The position numbers and the translations under genes are program-made. 28,969 bases of DNA from a virus: IMG/VR virus record IMGVR_UViG_3300023119_000089, positions 1 to 28,969 of that record. The stretch is one strand, 5' to 3'. Within the stretch, counting starts at the first letter, position 1; each line of letters starts with the position of its first letter. Of this stretch, positions 20,229 to 27,163 are shown piece after piece. Below the pieces are notes generated by a model, which worked only from the letters and a program-made list of their open reading frames with translations, searched no databases and was not told the origin of the DNA.

Positions 20229-20771
20229 CTAGCGGTGAAGATTCTTCACATAAGGGAGAACATGTGGAACCAGTTCAGCGAGAACCTTTACGTCCTGCTC
20301 GCAATGGACGACAACCTCATCCATCGCACCCTTATCCAGCGTCGCCGCTAACTGCCATTGCTCCCAAGAGATCGGAGTCTTGGCTTCACCTAAGTCGAAG
20401 AACTTCTGCGCGTTATCCAACTTAGCGGAACCAATACGCATCGAGGCTGAGTTCAAATACCAGCGGGTATCCATGTGCCACTCGACATGAATGGGTCGCT
20501 CTCCGTGCTTGGCTAGTCGAGCGTTCACGAATGGCACATCGAACAACTTCGAGTTGTGACCGACGATGAGTTTGTATTTCTCAAGGTGGTTGCGACAGGC
20601 GACGGCTAGTTTCTTGTCGTCTATCTTGGTTCGCCCCTTCCAGGGCTGCTCATCAGCACGGAAGGTGGTGACTTCACCTGTCTGACCATCGAGGAATGAA
20701 ACGCAAAGCATTCTCCCCATCAGTCCTTTAAGGTCGGTCGTCTCTATGTCGAATACGACGCTTGGAATCAT
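20229..20771 (-). CDS. DEDD-family 3'-5' exonuclease
   Basis: A 180-residue RNase H-fold nuclease (DnaQ/YprB-like). Exo I is VVFDIETTD with Asp8 and Glu10, Exo II is GHNSKLFDVPFV with Asp78, and Exo III is VVHCEQDVKVL with His155 and Asp159. The third motif has His three residues before Asp where DEDDy enzymes have Tyr, so the subtype is uncertain. Two metal ions would be held by the Asp and Glu residues. It stands alone without a polymerase domain, so it may work with a host polymerase or in DNA or RNA processing. ATG preceded by GGAGAAGTTGA; it overlaps the MazG-like gene by 4 bases. Confidence 0.8.
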   Translation of the reverse strand: MIPSVVFDIETTDLKGLMGRMLCVSFLDGQTGEVTTFRADEQPWKGRTKIDDKKLAVACRNHLEKYKLIVGHNSKLFDVPFVNARLAKHGERPIHVEWHMDTRWYLNSASMRIGSAKLDNAQKFFDLGEAKTPISWEQWQLAATLDKGAMDEVVVHCEQDVKVLAELVPHVLPYVKNLHR

Positions 20772-21049
20772 TCAACTTCTCCGATCTTGTCTGACCACCT
20801 GGCGATAGTCAGGTCAAGGCCGACGAGATATGTGATCGCATCAGCCACTTCTTGTCGTAGTTCAAGAAGGATTCGGTGTGGGTCGAACTCTTCCATCTTC
20901 TGATGAGTGCCCTCGTCGTATTCACGGGAGCCAGCATCGAGAAGCCTGAAGCGTGAGTAGGCGCACGCTCGTCTGTGGTAACTAGCAAACTGCTCGGGCG
21001 TAAGCCCGAAGTGAGGTGGCGTGGGGGGTGGTGGAGTGGGAATGGTCAC
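20768..21049 (-). CDS. MazG-like nucleotide pyrophosphohydrolase-type protein
   Basis: A 93-residue protein with a Pro-rich start (TIPTPPPPTPPHFG) and a helical domain including AYSRFRLLDAGSREYDEGTH and ILLELRQEVADAITYLVGLD. The motif E-L-x-x-E-x-x-D (Glu63, Glu67, Asp70) is the metal-binding signature of all-alpha NTP pyrophosphohydrolases (MazG/dUTPase-2 type), which hydrolyse (d)NTPs to monophosphates. A short single-domain form is usual in phages. The GTG start has GGAGGACTC upstream. It overlaps both neighbours by 4 bases, so it is co-translated with primase and exonuclease; nucleotide-pool control is the likely role. Confidence 0.65.
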   Translation of the reverse strand: MTIPTPPPPTPPHFGLTPEQFASYHRRACAYSRFRLLDAGSREYDEGTHQKMEEFDPHRILLELRQEVADAITYLVGLDLTIARWSDKIGEVE

Positions 21050-21705
21050 GAGTCCTCCAATTGCTGACCGATCAGATCAGAAAAGTGCTCGCTACCGTAT
21101 GTCTGAATTGTACTATTTACATCCTGTCCAGCAGGCAGCGACACGCGGATAGCATTCGGAATAGTTTCGGCTAAGAACTTGCCGAACTCATCCCCAGGAT
21201 TACGGTCGTTGCCTTCCTTCTGATCGTTGTCGGTGACCACGACCACCTTGCTGAACCCGTCGAAGCAGCGAGTGAAGTGCGGTTTCCAGCCGTTCACGCC
21301 AGGACTAGCGACAGCAGGGAACCCAGCGACGGTGGCTGCCACAGCGTCCAGTTCCCCCTCCACCACCAGCACCCAACTGACACTCTGATGCAGAGCGGAA
21401 ACGTTGAAGAGATGCTGACGCTGACCGGAAGGGGAGTCGTATTTCGGTAAGTCATCCGAAGCCAGCCGCCTGAACTTGTAAGCAACAACCCCGCTGGGAG
21501 TGCAGTAGGGAATCGACAAGGTGCCACGGAATCTGTCTTCGTGACCAGGAGCAACGACATCGACGTACCCAAGTTTGAACTGTTGAATACCCTCGCTCAA
21601 GCCCCGCTTCCGCAGGTACTCCTCGGCTGGTGAACCAGGCATGGCTTCGTGGTAGGCATCAGCAGCCCGAGTCCACATATCAATCATCGACTGATTCGGC
21701 TTCAT
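21046..21705 (-). CDS. DnaG-type primase, TOPRIM half
   Basis: A 219-residue TOPRIM catalytic fragment. I chose the ATG at 21705, with GGGAGGTG 7 bases upstream, over a start at 21753 that runs further into the preceding gene. After a helical N-terminal part (MIDMWTRAADAYHEAMPGSP, then EEYLRKRGLSEG, typical of the primase region before TOPRIM) come VVEGELDAVAA (catalytic Glu and Asp near residues 116-120) and VVTDNDQKEGNDRNPGDEF (Asp pair near 158-161). TOPRIM domains hold Mg for RNA-primer synthesis. The CHC2 zinc-binding domain is encoded separately about 1 kb upstream (22725-23051), so a complete primase needs both products. No helicase domain is fused. Confidence 0.85.
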   Translation of the reverse strand: MKPNQSMIDMWTRAADAYHEAMPGSPAEEYLRKRGLSEGIQQFKLGYVDVVAPGHEDRFRGTLSIPYCTPSGVVAYKFRRLASDDLPKYDSPSGQRQHLFNVSALHQSVSWVLVVEGELDAVAATVAGFPAVASPGVNGWKPHFTRCFDGFSKVVVVTDNDQKEGNDRNPGDEFGKFLAETIPNAIRVSLPAGQDVNSTIQTYGSEHFSDLIGQQLEDS

Positions 21706-21907
21706 CACTAAACACCTCCCAAAGAGTTCGAGGTTCGATCTCTGTTCCGTCATGCCAAATGCGAACTACCATCGCGCAGACCTCTTCACCCGTGTACAAG
21801 GCTTCCTCTTCCCATTCACGCAATGGGAGTGGGTCATGTTCTATGCAGACTGGATCGCTGACCCAGCCCATCTTCAAGCCATGAACAAACCACTCATCGA
21901 AATCCAT
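21680..21907 (-). CDS. Actinophage-type hypothetical protein, 75 aa
   Basis: The ATG shares a base with the previous TAA (TAATG). The product (MDFDEWFVHGLKMGWVSDPV, then CIEHDPLPLREWEEEALYTG and EEVCAMVVRIW) contains the pattern 'GWvSdPvC..HD..P....E ... C...VRi', seen in a small protein family common in actinophage early regions (recalled, not searched). Paired Cys and His suggest a metal site. The function is not known. It overlaps the primase TOPRIM gene by 26 bases, with the primase ribosome-binding site inside it. Confidence 0.7.
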   Translation of the reverse strand: MDFDEWFVHGLKMGWVSDPVCIEHDPLPLREWEEEALYTGEEVCAMVVRIWHDGTEIEPRTLWEVFSDEAESVDD

Positions 21908-22720: not shown

Positions 22721-22738
22721 ATCCCTAGATCACCCTGC
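22721..22738 (-). repeat. Extended junction motif at the primase split
   Basis: Read leftward, GCAGGGTGATCTAGGGAT supplies the stop codon (TAG) of the CHC2 gene, and the next start codon overlaps its last bases. Sixteen of 18 positions equal the copy at 25957-25974 that ends the N-terminal half of the split nuclease. Confidence 0.65.
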
Positions 22739-23051
22739 GTAGAGTCGGAGGAACCCAGCGTTTACTTTGTTTCTTTACTGATCGCCTAGTCGGAGCAGAC
22801 TTTCTTCCTGTCAAAGCCTCGATGTAACGCATGGCCTCGACGTAAGTGATGCCCTCCCTATCCATAACTATCTGTGCAGCAGTCCCGCCTGACCCGCAGG
22901 CGTGACAGAACCAGACACCTTTACTTCTATTGATTGATGCCGACGCATGAGCGTCGTCGTGGCTTGGGCAGTTGTACGCTCGCTCGCCGTACCCTGGTTC
23001 GGGTAGTTCGTAATGTTCGAGCACAGCAATCAGGTCGTCTTCTTGGCTCAC
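22725..23051 (-). CDS. DnaG-type primase, CHC2 zinc-binding half
   Basis: A 108-residue protein with the primase zinc-binding domain: Cys28 and His31 in NCPSHDD and Cys49 and Cys52 in VWFCHACGSGG, plus SASINRSKGVWFC typical of the CHC2 beta sheet. The helix after it (AAQIVMDREGITYVEAMRYI) matches the conserved 'd.i.fvm..eg.sf.eA' of DnaG. The CHC2 domain recognises template for primer start. The protein then ends in a basic tail (RRSVKKQSKRWVPPTLRRVI) whose last codons are the junction motif. The TOPRIM half lies at 21046-21705, so two polypeptides must cooperate. The GTG start overlaps the upstream stop (GTGA). Confidence 0.85.
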   Translation of the reverse strand: MSQEDDLIAVLEHYELPEPGYGERAYNCPSHDDAHASASINRSKGVWFCHACGSGGTAAQIVMDREGITYVEAMRYIEALTGRKSAPTRRSVKKQSKRWVPPTLRRVI

Positions 23052-23407
23052 GATTCACCCAGCATCCGTATCAACTCAAGAAGCGTGTCCAGATTCATGG
23101 TGACCCTGGCCTCACCGATGCCTTTCTGCCTGGTCTTCGTAGCAACAACAGGGATCGTGGGAACTCCGTACTTCAGTTCGTAGTTGCATGATTCGACATC
23201 TGCTTGACGAAGCCACTCACTCATGTCTTGCTTCTTCACGTTCTTGGCTTCGATAACGATGGTCAGCGCCTTCAGTATGAGAGCGACATCGCCGATATCT
23301 TTTGCTCCGGCACGGGGTAAGCGCCGTGCCTTCATCAATGCTTCGTTGAGGTAATCCTCTAGGTCAACCTCGAACTTCGTTCCCTTTGCCTTGTTGTAGG
23401 AACTCAT
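23048..23407 (-). CDS. PD-(D/E)XK nuclease, resolvase-like
   Basis: A 119-residue nuclease of the PD-(D/E)XK fold resembling Hjc/archaeal-type Holliday junction resolvases found in phages: KGTKFEVDLEDYLNE with Glu13, then ARRLPRAGAKDIGDVALI with Asp40, and VIEAKNVKK with Glu53 and Lys55. A basic helix follows (MSEWLRQADVESCNYELK), and a final 'kygVPtipVVatKtR.k.iGea.V.m' strand-helix. It likely cleaves branched DNA during recombination or before packaging. The start is an ATG with CGAGGGGCAAGAA upstream; it overlaps WhiB by 4 bases. Confidence 0.75.
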   Translation of the reverse strand: MSSYNKAKGTKFEVDLEDYLNEALMKARRLPRAGAKDIGDVALILKALTIVIEAKNVKKQDMSEWLRQADVESCNYELKYGVPTIPVVATKTRQKGIGEARVTMNLDTLLELIRMLGES

Positions 23408-23805
23408 TTCTTGCCCCTCGAATTCAGCCCTCTTGACTTCAACTCATCTCGAATCCGCTGGTTATTCCGTGCGTTGCGCTCTAGTCGCCGATCATTGACC
23501 GCTTTCTTGTGAGCCGCATGATTCTCAATCGCTGCGTCTATCCGCTGAAGCATCTGATCTACTAGTAGTGAGCGGTCAGGCTTCGCTCGCTTCTTGTACT
23601 TGGGCAGGAGGGTCACTCGATCCCAATGGGTCATGCCACCCCATACTCCGAACTCTTCTTCTTGATCGAATGATGCAGTCATACATTCCTTCTGGACTGG
23701 GCATTGGGCGCAGATCTTGACGGCATCCCATTCCTGTCCTGGGTAGTCGGGAAACCAAACTTCTGGGTCAACCGATCGACACGTTGCTTGCTCTACCCAA
23801 TCCAT
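23404..23805 (-). CDS. WhiB-family iron-sulfur regulator
   Basis: A 133-residue WhiB-like protein. It has the four cluster cysteines Cys9 (ATCRSVDPEVWFPD), Cys32, Cys35 (ICAQCPVQ) and Cys41 (KECMTAS), and the GVWGG turn at residues 53-57. WhiB proteins bind a [4Fe-4S] cluster and, with the sigma factor, contact promoter DNA; they occur only in Actinobacteria and their phages, where they can repress host whiB2 and block superinfection. The C-terminal 70 residues are Arg/Lys/Asn-rich (HKKAVNDRRLERNARNNQRI), a longer basic tail than usual that may bind DNA. The ATG follows AGAGGCGTGA and overlaps the helicase end by 13 bases. Confidence 0.92.
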   Translation of the reverse strand: MDWVEQATCRSVDPEVWFPDYPGQEWDAVKICAQCPVQKECMTASFDQEEEFGVWGGMTHWDRVTLLPKYKKRAKPDRSLLVDQMLQRIDAAIENHAAHKKAVNDRRLERNARNNQRIRDELKSRGLNSRGKK

Positions 23806-24620
23806 TCACGCCTCTTCTTGGCGGTCTCAAGATCTTGCAAAGTGTTGAATAGAGACATGGATTCAGGATCGACGTACACCGTGACCGGATCATCTGCGTA
23901 TGGGTCTGCCTTGCCGTCTCGGTTCTTGACCGCCGCAATGTGGTAGCGAGGCCCATCCATTGCGATAGTGAGGATTACCTCGGGAAGGGCGTTGACCTTT
24001 CCCATCGTTGCCTTCATAGGTGAAGGCTGCGTTGGTTGTCCTTGGCTTTCAGATGTGTGATGCAAGACGAGTACGGCGCTGAGCGTGTCTCGGGCAAGGG
24101 TGTGAAGAGCACGAAGCCCATCACGCAGTCCAGTCCACTCGTTGTCGTGCATGGCCTGGATATTCGACAAGTTATCTACAACGATCAGTTCGGGGCATCG
24201 CCCGAACATCTCAATCCAGGCGTAGCACTCTTCGTAAATGTCATCGAGCGTTGGTGCTGGGTTGGTCTGAATCCTGATGCGGTTGGACAGATCCCACAGG
24301 CTGTCAACCATTGCGGGGTCGTCCTCGTCGAACGCACGCATCTTCTTGACGGTCGATACCGTCTCTTTCATATGCACAGCAAGGGCACGATTAACAATCG
24401 TTCCTTCGTCAGAGTCGGCGCTGAAGTACAAGCACTCGACTCCGCTGGTTATGGCGTACCAAAGAGCAGCAAGAGTTTTTCCTCGACCAGGCTGTCCTGC
24501 TAAGACATGCAGTTGCCCACGCCTAAAGCGGATACCCGCTTCGTGAACGAGAGGCAGGAACGGAGGCAGTTCTTCGCCTGCCTCCGAACCGGCAACAACA
24601 ACCTGAAGAAGACTTCTCAC
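23793..24620 (-). CDS. RecA/DnaB-like replicative helicase ATPase
   Basis: A 275-residue P-loop ATPase of the RecA/DnaB type. Walker A is AGQPGRGKT at residues 41-49, an acidic motif YFSADSDEGTIVNRAL is near 65-80, Walker B is LIVVDN at 145-150, then LVLHHTSES and an arginine-finger-like region toward the end. It lacks the DnaB N-terminal domain, as do many short actinophage 'DnaB-like' helicases and Twinkle-type cores. It likely unwinds the fork and works with the split primase. The GTG start overlaps the upstream stop. A RadA-like recombination role is the alternative. Confidence 0.8.
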   Translation of the reverse strand: MRSLLQVVVAGSEAGEELPPFLPLVHEAGIRFRRGQLHVLAGQPGRGKTLAALWYAITSGVECLYFSADSDEGTIVNRALAVHMKETVSTVKKMRAFDEDDPAMVDSLWDLSNRIRIQTNPAPTLDDIYEECYAWIEMFGRCPELIVVDNLSNIQAMHDNEWTGLRDGLRALHTLARDTLSAVLVLHHTSESQGQPTQPSPMKATMGKVNALPEVILTIAMDGPRYHIAAVKNRDGKADPYADDPVTVYVDPESMSLFNTLQDLETAKKRREWIG

Positions 24621-25105
24621 GACGTAACGGGCAACTTCGGCAGATCGGAAGTGTCGTACTTGTCAGGAGTCCATTTCATCCATGCGCTCTTGGCAGCCTG
24701 ACCACGGATCTTTCCGCTGGCAACGTCAGGAGTCACCCATTGGGAGTACATGTTTCCTGACTGTTGAGCGCGAGACCACTTCAAGACTGCTTTCTCACCA
24801 GCATCGGTAAGCGGTGCGTTCGAGCGGTCGTAGACGAACCAAGTGTTGTCGAACTTCTTATCGACACGACCGTCGTATTCCGTCCCGTTCTGGTCACCGT
24901 CATCGCTGGCAACGACACCTGCATCCTTGAGATTCTGTGTCGCCTGCTCAACGGTAGGAGCCTGACCTTCGATGCGCTCCTTGATGCGAAGCAGAGATTC
25001 GTATGACGCAAGAAACTCTTCTTCGGTGTCACCACGGGCGGTGAGTAGGTCGTTACCACGACCGACCTTGGTTGTGTACGAGAACAGGTGTTCGTTCGCG
25101 CTCAT
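24617..25105 (-). CDS. Replication-block hypothetical protein, 162 aa
   Basis: A 162-residue protein between nuclease and helicase, starting at an ATG after AAAGGAAACAA. The N-terminal part (HLFSYTTKVGRGNDLLTARG, then DTEEEFLASYESLLRIKERI) looks like an actinophage family with the 'nLltvRGdT.eEF..n' pattern. The centre is acidic, and the C-terminal part has aromatic and Lys residues (KWTPDKYDTSDLPKLP). No catalytic motif. Position next to a Cas4-like nuclease and helicase suggests single-strand binding or annealing support, but this is inference only. It overlaps both neighbours by 4 bases. Confidence 0.7.
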   Translation of the reverse strand: MSANEHLFSYTTKVGRGNDLLTARGDTEEEFLASYESLLRIKERIEGQAPTVEQATQNLKDAGVVASDDGDQNGTEYDGRVDKKFDNTWFVYDRSNAPLTDAGEKAVLKWSRAQQSGNMYSQWVTPDVASGKIRGQAAKSAWMKWTPDKYDTSDLPKLPVTS

Positions 25106-25767
25106 TTGTTTCCTTTCATTTGGAGGGGGTATTTATCTGACAAAAATCCGTTGGCTGCTTGGCAGTAGTCCTTGACGGAGCACCAGCCGCAATGCATGTC
25201 AACGTTCGGAGCGAAGAGACCGAGAGACATTTGAGCGTGCGTGGTGGAGAACCAGCCGTCAAAGAAGTCTTCATCCCAATGGGACAGGTCGATCCGGTCG
25301 CCGATCTCTCCCTTGCGCGTCATGTAGTACGCGCCACGGTCAATCTCCATGCCGGTCGCTCGCTTGATACCGGCTCGATACAGGGCTAACTGCAACGCAG
25401 AGTGCGGAGTGTTCTTGCCTGTCTTGAAGTCAACAATCCAATGCTGATCTCGCTCGTCTTGGAAGATTCCATCGACGAACATCTTGATCGGCACGCCACC
25501 GAACTGCGTCTCAACACCCCACTCGATTCCAGGCCGGTCGTCGGGCATGGTCGCTACGCGCCAACCACTTTCCTCGTACCACTTGACGTAATCTTCGATT
25601 TGTCGAAGACCCTCGTTCATCCAGAAGTCAACGTCTTCACCGTCAGGCAGAGCCTTGGTCTTACGACCACCGACCTTGAACTCTGAGACTGGGTAGCCGC
25701 TATCGGTCTCAGCCTTGGCTAGTTCGGAGCGGAACTCACCGCTCCACATCTCACTAAGTTGCGTCAC
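25102..25767 (-). CDS. Cas4/RecB-like nuclease, catalytic C-terminal half
   Basis: A PD-(D/E)XK exonuclease part of 221 residues. I chose the GTG at 25767, with GGAGAGACAA upstream, over a TTG at 25788. The catalytic residues are Asp99 in MFVDGIFQD, Asp113 and Lys115 in HWIVDFKTGK, and a Gln in LQLALYRAG. Near the end, CGWCSVKDYC provides three of the four cysteines that bind an Fe-S cluster in Cas4/AddB-type nucleases. The missing N-terminal Cys and the GSxxH motif are in the separate ORF 25953-26189. Typical family members hold both parts in one chain. It probably resects DNA ends in recombination. No CRISPR array is present. Confidence 0.85.
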   Translation of the reverse strand: MTQLSEMWSGEFRSELAKAETDSGYPVSEFKVGGRKTKALPDGEDVDFWMNEGLRQIEDYVKWYEESGWRVATMPDDRPGIEWGVETQFGGVPIKMFVDGIFQDERDQHWIVDFKTGKNTPHSALQLALYRAGIKRATGMEIDRGAYYMTRKGEIGDRIDLSHWDEDFFDGWFSTTHAQMSLGLFAPNVDMHCGWCSVKDYCQAANGFLSDKYPLQMKGNK

Positions 25768-25969
25768 TTGTCTCTCCAATGTGGTCAATCTCGGTTGGCA
25801 GGGTCACGGGGTAGTCGCAGGCGACGCACTTGACGTAGTGCAGGTCGCGGGTCAGGTACCAAGAGATCTGCCCCTGCTCGTCGAAGCGAACGTGAGTGAC
25901 GAACGTGTCACCCAGACAGTTGGGGCAGTACCTCGAAGGGCGTGCATAGAGATTAGATCCCTCTATCAC
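25754..25969 (-). CDS. Zinc-ribbon protein inserted between nuclease halves
   Basis: A 71-residue frame with its GTG start inside the junction motif (25957-25974). It contains CPNCLGDTFVTHVRFD and CVACDYPVTLP, two Cys-x2-Cys knuckles 34 residues apart, a standard zinc ribbon. It overlaps the N-terminal nuclease half by 17 bases and the C-terminal half by 14. The region 25798-25974 is bounded by inverted GCAGGGT/ACCCTGC. It may be a late arrival that divided the nuclease gene, or it may have evolved to bridge the two halves. It has no close resemblance to other zinc-ribbon genes here. Confidence 0.7.
   Translation of the reverse strand: MIEGSNLYARPSRYCPNCLGDTFVTHVRFDEQGQISWYLTRDLHYVKCVACDYPVTLPTEIDHIGETSDAT
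25798..25805 (+). repeat. Near copy GCAGGGTC facing the junction motif at 25957-25974
   Basis: Seven bases of the motif (GCAGGGT) on the plus strand face the minus-strand copy 170 bases away. Together they bound most of the zinc-ribbon gene that interrupts the nuclease. With only 7 bp this could be chance. Confidence 0.4.
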
Positions 25970-26189
25970 CCTGCACCTGCTCCAAATAAAAACCCTTGTT
26001 CAGTTGCTCGATGACAGAGTGGATCGCACTACCGGCGCATAGATACACGGCTGGCTTGCGATCCACCTGCTCAACCTTCTCCAAGTACCACTGGTGCTGG
26101 CACCGGAGCCAGGTCGTGACCTGACTGTGTGACAGGTGTGTTGGTCGTTCAGCCAAGGGGTGCCTCCACTTGTATGTAGTCCCAATCAT
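25953..26189 (-). CDS. Cas4/RecB-like nuclease, N-terminal half
   Basis: A 78-residue protein equal to the start of Cas4/RecB-like phage nucleases: LSHSQVTTWLRCQHQWYLEK with Cys30 (the single N-terminal Fe-S ligand) and CAGSAIHSVIEQLN with His57 (the GSxxH motif). The usual continuation (about 15-25 residues, then a W..EF helix and the DxK core) is absent here but begins in the ORF at 25102-25767. The last codons are the junction motif. The two halves would need to form a heterodimer to make the complete active site and cluster. The ATG at 26189 lies within the previous gene (41-base overlap), with GAAGG upstream. Confidence 0.8.
   Translation of the reverse strand: MIGTTYKWRHPLAERPTHLSHSQVTTWLRCQHQWYLEKVEQVDRKPAVYLCAGSAIHSVIEQLNKGFYLEQVQGDRGI
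25957..25974 (-). repeat. Extended junction motif at the nuclease split
   Basis: Read leftward, GCAGGGTGATAGAGGGAT encodes the last residues (QGDRG) of the N-terminal nuclease half and holds the GTG start of the inserted zinc-ribbon gene. It differs at two positions from the copy at the primase split (22721-22738). Confidence 0.65.
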
Positions 26190-26634: not shown

Positions 26635-27102
26635 CTAGGAAGCATGGTCAAGCGGTTCGGGTATCCGAACCAAGCCATCCTTATCCCGTCGTGCTACATA
26701 GTGGAACCCTGCTACTGAACTGATGTCGTAATGAATGCACAGATTCTTCTCATCAAGTTCTGCTTTCCAGCGTTCATACCTGCCCTTGGCTTTGTCATCT
26801 ACCGGCAGGTTCTTACTCAGCCGCGCTCCGATGCGGAGCATCTGCAACTGGTAGGCCGTGTTGTGATCCACGGAGATCCGACCCCAAGGTATGAAATCGT
26901 CGTACCTGATCCGGTCGGTCAAGCCCATCCGAGATAGGCCGGAACTTACGGTGGACAAGGACACAGTCTCTCCCGTGTCCTCGAAAATCTTTTCCACTAT
27001 CTGCCGGTGTGTCATCCCAGCATCCAACATTTTTTCTAGTTCGTTCTTCGGGGGTAACTTCCTGTACTGACCCATGTGCCAATCACCGTCCTGTGTCACC
27101 AT
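26635..27102 (-). CDS. HTH DNA-binding regulator, actinophage type
   Basis: A 155-residue protein. I chose the ATG at 27102, with AAGGTG 5 bases upstream and downstream of the expected transcription start, over 27144, which has no site. An N-terminal HTH (LEKMLDAGMTHRQIVEKIFE, then TVSLSTVSSGLSRMGLTDR) is followed by DDFIPWGRISVDHNTAYQLQ and MLRIGARLSKNLPVDDKAKG, matching a common actinophage family with 'IPWrv...H..aY..qMLR.gaR'. The C-terminus ends in a short beta region (GFHYVARRDKDGLVRIPEP). Family members are annotated only as helix-turn-helix DNA-binding proteins. The position opposite the integrase suggests lysogeny or early control. Confidence 0.75.
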   Translation of the reverse strand: MVTQDGDWHMGQYRKLPPKNELEKMLDAGMTHRQIVEKIFEDTGETVSLSTVSSGLSRMGLTDRIRYDDFIPWGRISVDHNTAYQLQMLRIGARLSKNLPVDDKAKGRYERWKAELDEKNLCIHYDISSVAGFHYVARRDKDGLVRIPEPLDHAS

Positions 27103-27134
27103 GCGAACACCTTGCGTGTGGCAGGTCTGATACA

Positions 27135-27163
27135 CATCATGCACTAATGAGCGCGTATGTCAA
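27135..27163 (-). promoter_or_regulatory. Candidate promoter for the HTH gene
   Basis: Read leftward, a perfect TTGACA (27163-27158) is followed after 16 bases by CATGAT (27141-27136), four of six to consensus. Transcription would begin near 27129, so only the start codon at 27102, not the one at 27144, could be used. Confidence 0.5.

Follow-up and report, generated by a model that had tools for sequence, protein, structure and literature searches.

In nucleases of the Cas4/AddB/Dna2 type, a metal cluster is thought to staple together both ends of one polypeptide chain. Four conserved cysteines have been reported in all Cas4-family proteins (PMC5704561), and replacement of any of the four in the Cas4 protein Sso0001 yielded insoluble protein, while in the structure 3L0A the four cysteines hold zinc (PMC3466216). 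Here, we analysed a window of 28,969 nt of viral DNA, comprising positions 1 to 28,969 of the IMG/VR record IMGVR_UViG_3300023119_000089. The motifs of Cas4/RecB-like nucleases usually share one polypeptide, a layout that is customary though not strictly defining, but in this window and throughout the surrounding phage clade they lie in separate ORFs in different frames. We consider it likely that the locus encodes a two-gene nuclease, whose chains associate to share one metal cluster and one active site, and for which the zinc-ribbon protein encoded between them is not required.

The locus consists of three overlapping ORFs in three frames on the minus strand, running from 26189 to 25102 (Table 1), and all three were confirmed. 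The first-pass annotation had read them as a nuclease split into two polypeptides around a zinc-ribbon gene, and the profile matches bear this out. The N-half (26189-25953) matches positions 1-51 of the Pfam profile PDDEXK_1 (E 3.4e-6) and the C-half (25788/25767-25102) matches positions 83-247 (E 7.8e-11), so that the two halves are complementary parts of one domain. The C-half also matches the exonuclease family phrog_1870 (E 2.7e-44), 'exonuclease' being the PHROGs label for both halves, and has profile matches to AdnA and ACE1. The match to the CRISPR-associated family CAS-Cas4 (pfam01930) fell below the cut-off (Cas_Cas4, E 0.077), and no cas genes were found among the neighbours that were profiled (part of the window's ORFs), which were replication, regulatory and structural phage genes.

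The zinc-ribbon ORF shares 17 nt with the N-half and 14 nt with the C-half, or 35 nt with the latter if it starts at TTG 25788; an overlap with both halves had been noted before. With three frames involved and 165 nt between the stop of the N-half and the earliest start of the C-half, no single-base error would join the halves, as had also been argued. The length of 78 residues first given for the N-half needs revision: the ORF is present, but its start is probably TTG 26156 rather than ATG 26189, which gives 67 residues, because relatives start at the same column (ATG in L006 and L007, GTG in L008). GGAG precedes the start in these three relatives as well, and in the window the TTG overlaps the upstream stop as TTGGCTGA. 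The 221 residues proposed for the C-half stand, as judged from ATG at the position of GTG 25767 in relatives and from GGAGAG upstream.

Table 1. Features of the split nuclease locus and its synteny markers (window coordinates).
Feature	Coordinates	Strand	Details
Nuclease N-half	25953..26156	-	67 aa from TTG 26156; 78 aa (26189-25953) if ATG 26189 used
N-half motifs		-	SxS, Fe-S Cys C30 (78-aa numbering), GSAIH with active-site His57; PDDEXK_1 match and invariants
Zinc-ribbon gene between halves	25754..25969	-	71 aa, GTG start, four Cys
Nuclease C-half	25102..25767	-	221 aa from GTG 25767; 228 aa from TTG 25788
C-half motifs		-	PD-(D/E)XK core (D..DxK..QxxxY) and CxxC...C; PDDEXK_1 match, phrog_1870, invariants
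Shine-Dalgarno-like GGAGG	26163..26167	-	precedes N-half TTG, 6 nt upstream
Weak Shine-Dalgarno-like GGAG	25980..25983	-	precedes zinc-ribbon GTG
Shine-Dalgarno-like GGAGAG	25772..25777	-	precedes C-half GTG
DnaB-like helicase, downstream synteny marker	23793..24620	-	phrog_243, E 2.7e-60
Transcriptional repressor, upstream synteny marker	26635..27144	-	phrog_3929, E 1.3e-19

Alignment of 33 diverse N-halves revealed S20, S22, C30, L36, P46, G53 and H57 as invariant, and in 42 aligned C-halves the residues E82, D99, D113, K115, Q126, Y130, C193, C196 and C202 never varied. The catalytic motifs of the PD-(D/E)XK family are therefore present, both by the Pfam matches of the two halves and by the invariant E82, D99, D113, K115 and Q126. 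All four cysteines of the family are kept in the aligned members, C30 on the N-half and C193, C196 and C202 on the C-half, in agreement with the earlier proposal that the cluster ligands lie on two chains. Taken one after the other, N-half and C-half can be aligned with one-piece relatives without loss of any conserved motif, in line with the earlier remark that only continuity seems to be missing. By analogy with 3L0A, the four cysteines of the split nuclease could hold zinc instead of an Fe-S cluster.

Structure prediction of a one-piece environmental relative (L245; pLDDT 93.7, pTM 0.90) gave a model that matched the ACE1 Cas4 family, AdnA, Dna2 and Cas4 over its whole length in a fold search, and the split point falls in its loop between helices 33-50 and 57-78. 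Modelled alone, the C-half of the window reached a pLDDT of 88.4 with a confident core, dropping to about 66 across residues 181-200, a stretch that includes Cys193 and Cys196; this model matches ACE1, AdnA and Cas4 over its core, to which the alignment with ACE1 is confined. The weaker confidence in the cysteine region could stem from a different query, a longer tail or a shallower alignment.

Three alignments, one each for C-half, N-half and zinc ribbon, served as queries for separate scans of IMG/VR, and each locus was scored with profiles of both halves in all forward frames. Each scan is limited to the loci closest to its query (best 80) and loci are shared between scans; the figures describe clades rather than all phages. 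Among the best 80 loci of the C-half scan, 78 had an adjoining N-half as a different ORF, and the other two begin no more than about 215 nt from the end of a contig. The C-half lay in a different ORF in 80 of the best 80 loci of the N-half scan. Taken together, the two half-scans, which share loci, had the halves as neighbouring separate ORFs in 158/160 loci, and separate ORFs were also found in all 12 loci of the zinc-ribbon scan. A scan with one-piece proteins of the cluster-A type gave a continuous ORF throughout (80/80 of the best 80). The three-gene layout is the same in IMG/VR contigs with C-halves 76-100% identical. The layout is not due to chance, since all relatives whose flanking sequence is long enough show it too. 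A search of related phages for fused versus split versions had been suggested at first pass; neither a continuous frame in close relatives nor, where upstream sequence sufficed in the IMG/VR scans, a C-half without an N-half was found.

When GTDB genomes were scanned with the C-half alignment, no relative was found. Among annotated phages, the only close matches to the split forms are two Planktophila isolates, LanE43-AprE7 and LanE43-AprF5 (ct2KA10; OX376640, OX376641), which were isolated with their host and whose nuclease goes unmentioned in the accompanying paper (PMC10202952). The Planktophila phage record carries no annotation; examination of OX376641 revealed a split nuclease. Pairwise dN/dS was 0.03-0.11 for the N-half and 0.05-0.15 for the C-half, with no ratio for some pairs that are saturated at silent sites, and both halves are under purifying selection. 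A large and deep clade of phages, from lakes and other environments, keeps the nuclease split. In the open literature, to which our search was confined, we found no description of a split Cas4/RecB nuclease, and the two-chain arrangement seems not to have been described before as a conserved variant of this phage nuclease family.

We compared 118 distinct junctions from many samples, which showed three geometries: ATGA/GTGA, ATGNNTAA, or an inserted gene. In the first class (39 loci), ATG or GTG of the C-half overlaps the stop of the N-half by 4 nt in 39/39, with a Shine-Dalgarno-like site in 34/39. In the second (56 loci), ATG of the C-half lies 5 nt before the stop, an 8-nt overlap, in 47/56. 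Such sites precede the start in only 2/56 here, and reinitiation is therefore assumed for this class. The third class comprises 23 loci in which the C-domain lies farther away with a gene between the halves (19/23 with a Shine-Dalgarno-like site), although L097, placed there by distance, is actually a GTGA overlap. Most often the inserted gene is a homologue of the zinc ribbon, and in some loci additional small genes follow it. A few phages carry different genes between the halves, encoding charged, coiled-coil-like proteins (L112 947-1225, L131 2655-2930, L109 2683-2919), and the junction therefore seems to be a repeated insertion point.

Ribosomal frameshifting or bypassing might join the halves into a full-length nuclease, which would make the split only apparent. 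Where the halves overlap directly, one frameshift would indeed suffice to fuse the frames with few extra residues. However, the shift needed differs between classes (+1 or -1), both the stop and the codon preceding it vary, and start codons are kept at the junction, which argues for separate translation over frameshifting. The window itself would require two shifts, by way of the zinc-ribbon frame, and relatives vary in how the genes overlap at this point. No single conserved frameshift can account for halves whose relative phase is +1, -1 or interrupted; given this variation and the conserved starts, recoding was rejected as the common mechanism, and we regard an apparent split as very improbable. 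An error in sequencing or assembly, or a pseudogene in decay, deserves practically no credence: nothing was found in its favour, and the 118 junctions, the two sequenced phage isolates, the conservation and the strong purifying selection led us to reject it. An alternative explanation might be that the C-half is a self-sufficient nuclease and that the N-half has turned into a separate regulator or an unrelated small protein. The C-half carries all acidic and lysine catalytic residues, and its core is modelled confidently alone. Yet the N-half retains exactly the first cysteine of the family and the active-site histidine under strong selection, and it accompanies every C-half with enough upstream sequence. 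We therefore find a self-sufficient C-half unlikely.

The first-pass annotation had also offered the zinc-ribbon protein as a third subunit, which would make the nuclease an obligate three-chain enzyme. Its cysteines C15, C18, C48 and C51, in a CxxC...CxxC pattern, are invariant among 13 homologues; no clear relative was found in Pfam, PHROG or PDB. In favour of a third subunit, two deep lineages carry homologues between the two halves (profile-profile probability 98.5%), most large contigs of the 8-nt-overlap lineage carry one at another place in the genome, and none was found in 23 one-piece phages. However, the ATGA/GTGA lineage, in which the halves overlap directly, likewise yielded none in its largest contigs (G001, 40.9 kb; G002, 38.5 kb; G039, 40.4 kb), and in Planktophila phage F5 the homologue lies about 5 kb off on the opposite strand, beside WhiB. 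The zinc ribbon also evolves faster than both halves (dN/dS 0.11-0.33 where sequences differ at all). Its absence from the large contigs led us to reject it as an obligate subunit, and a three-chain enzyme has, in our view, only a slight chance of being correct. The zinc ribbon accompanies the split in part without being needed for it. Its gene is often carried along at the junction, but the product is no required subunit.

A two-chain nuclease remains our preferred reading. The mechanism with most support is a heterodimer sharing one metal site, an inference like the nuclease activity itself; an obligate heterodimer would be likeliest because the invariant histidine and cysteine sit on the N-chain. 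In this reading, the phage DNA-end exonuclease of the Cas4/RecB family (pfam12705-type) is permanently divided into two genes, which overlap or adjoin, and their products would be made independently before they associate. The N-chain would supply helices 1-3, the active-site histidine and the first cysteine; the catalytic core and the remaining three cysteines would come from the C-chain. Because the cluster-holding and active-site parts lie on different chains, the chains probably must meet, and one metal cluster (probably Fe-S) and a complete active site would form only with both. The assembled enzyme would then act like the one-piece version at the same genome position, presumably in DNA-end processing during phage replication and recombination. 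It is conceivable, if somewhat doubtful, that an Fe-S cluster bridges the two independently translated chains with its insertion serving as an assembly switch for activity, and that the zinc ribbon tunes assembly in some lineages.

A phage clade with the two ends of the staple on separate proteins offers a natural experiment on the role of the cluster and its time of loading, and may provide a ready-made split nuclease. One of its members, phage F5, infects a cultured host (Planktophila LanE-43), which makes these ideas testable. The clade also holds a warning for annotation: N-halves of 60-80 aa are easily left hypothetical, and C-halves are called complete exonucleases.

Other genes of the window were noted as well. 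Its DnaG-type primase is likewise divided, with a CHC2 zinc-ribbon protein (22725-23051) and a Toprim protein (21046-21753) encoded separately on the minus strand, about 970 nt apart with another gene between them; in phage F5 the primase pieces are in overlapping ORFs (L293 7499-7888 and 7024-7650, minus strand). Possibly, splitting is a general habit of these phages. The replication module further contains a stand-alone 3'-5' exonuclease-like (RNase_H_2) protein of 180 aa (20229-20771, minus strand). Directly after the C-half lies a gene of 162 aa for which no family was found (24617-25105, minus strand), and a look-alike of 127 aa with cysteines near its end follows the C-half of phage F5 (L293 9378-9761, minus strand). 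The 162-aa protein could be a partner of the nuclease. A WhiB-like regulator (23404-23805, minus strand), located between DnaB and a Holliday-junction resolvase-like gene, suggests an actinobacterial host.

In an unrooted tree, the one-piece proteins fell into two long-branched groups that lie amid the split lineages. The split sequences were not one clade in the best tree, but a single split clade was not rejected (p-AU 0.284). The gene may have been split once, long ago, with the junction remodelled later, or it may have been split or re-fused several times.

The split nuclease resembles the one-piece Cas4-family exonucleases of the pfam12705 clade, known from cluster-A-type mycobacteriophages and from Rhodococcus, Gordonia and Cutibacterium phages, in having the same motifs end to end and in lying between an immunity repressor and a DnaB-like helicase. 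The order of repressor, small gene(s), nuclease, small gene(s) and DnaB is common to the one-piece phages, and the split pair is therefore the positional counterpart of their exonuclease. In Cutibacterium phage YGXY (L197, PV806360.1) the exonuclease occupies one ORF (901-1482), and the other short ORFs annotated over it are an annotation slip. The one-piece phage exonucleases are single chains of about 265-315 aa, whereas here there are two chains from usually overlapping genes, with or without an inserted gene. The Planktophila phages, as read in OX376641, share the same split and a syntenic replication module, but differ from the window in that their halves overlap directly and the zinc-ribbon homologue lies elsewhere in the genome. 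With the Fe-S nucleases Cas4, AddB, AdnA and Dna2 (including ACE1, 9iab/9iac), the split form has in common the PD-(D/E)XK core and one N-terminal plus three C-terminal cysteines; in those enzymes the four ligands share one chain, whereas here they are predicted to come from two.
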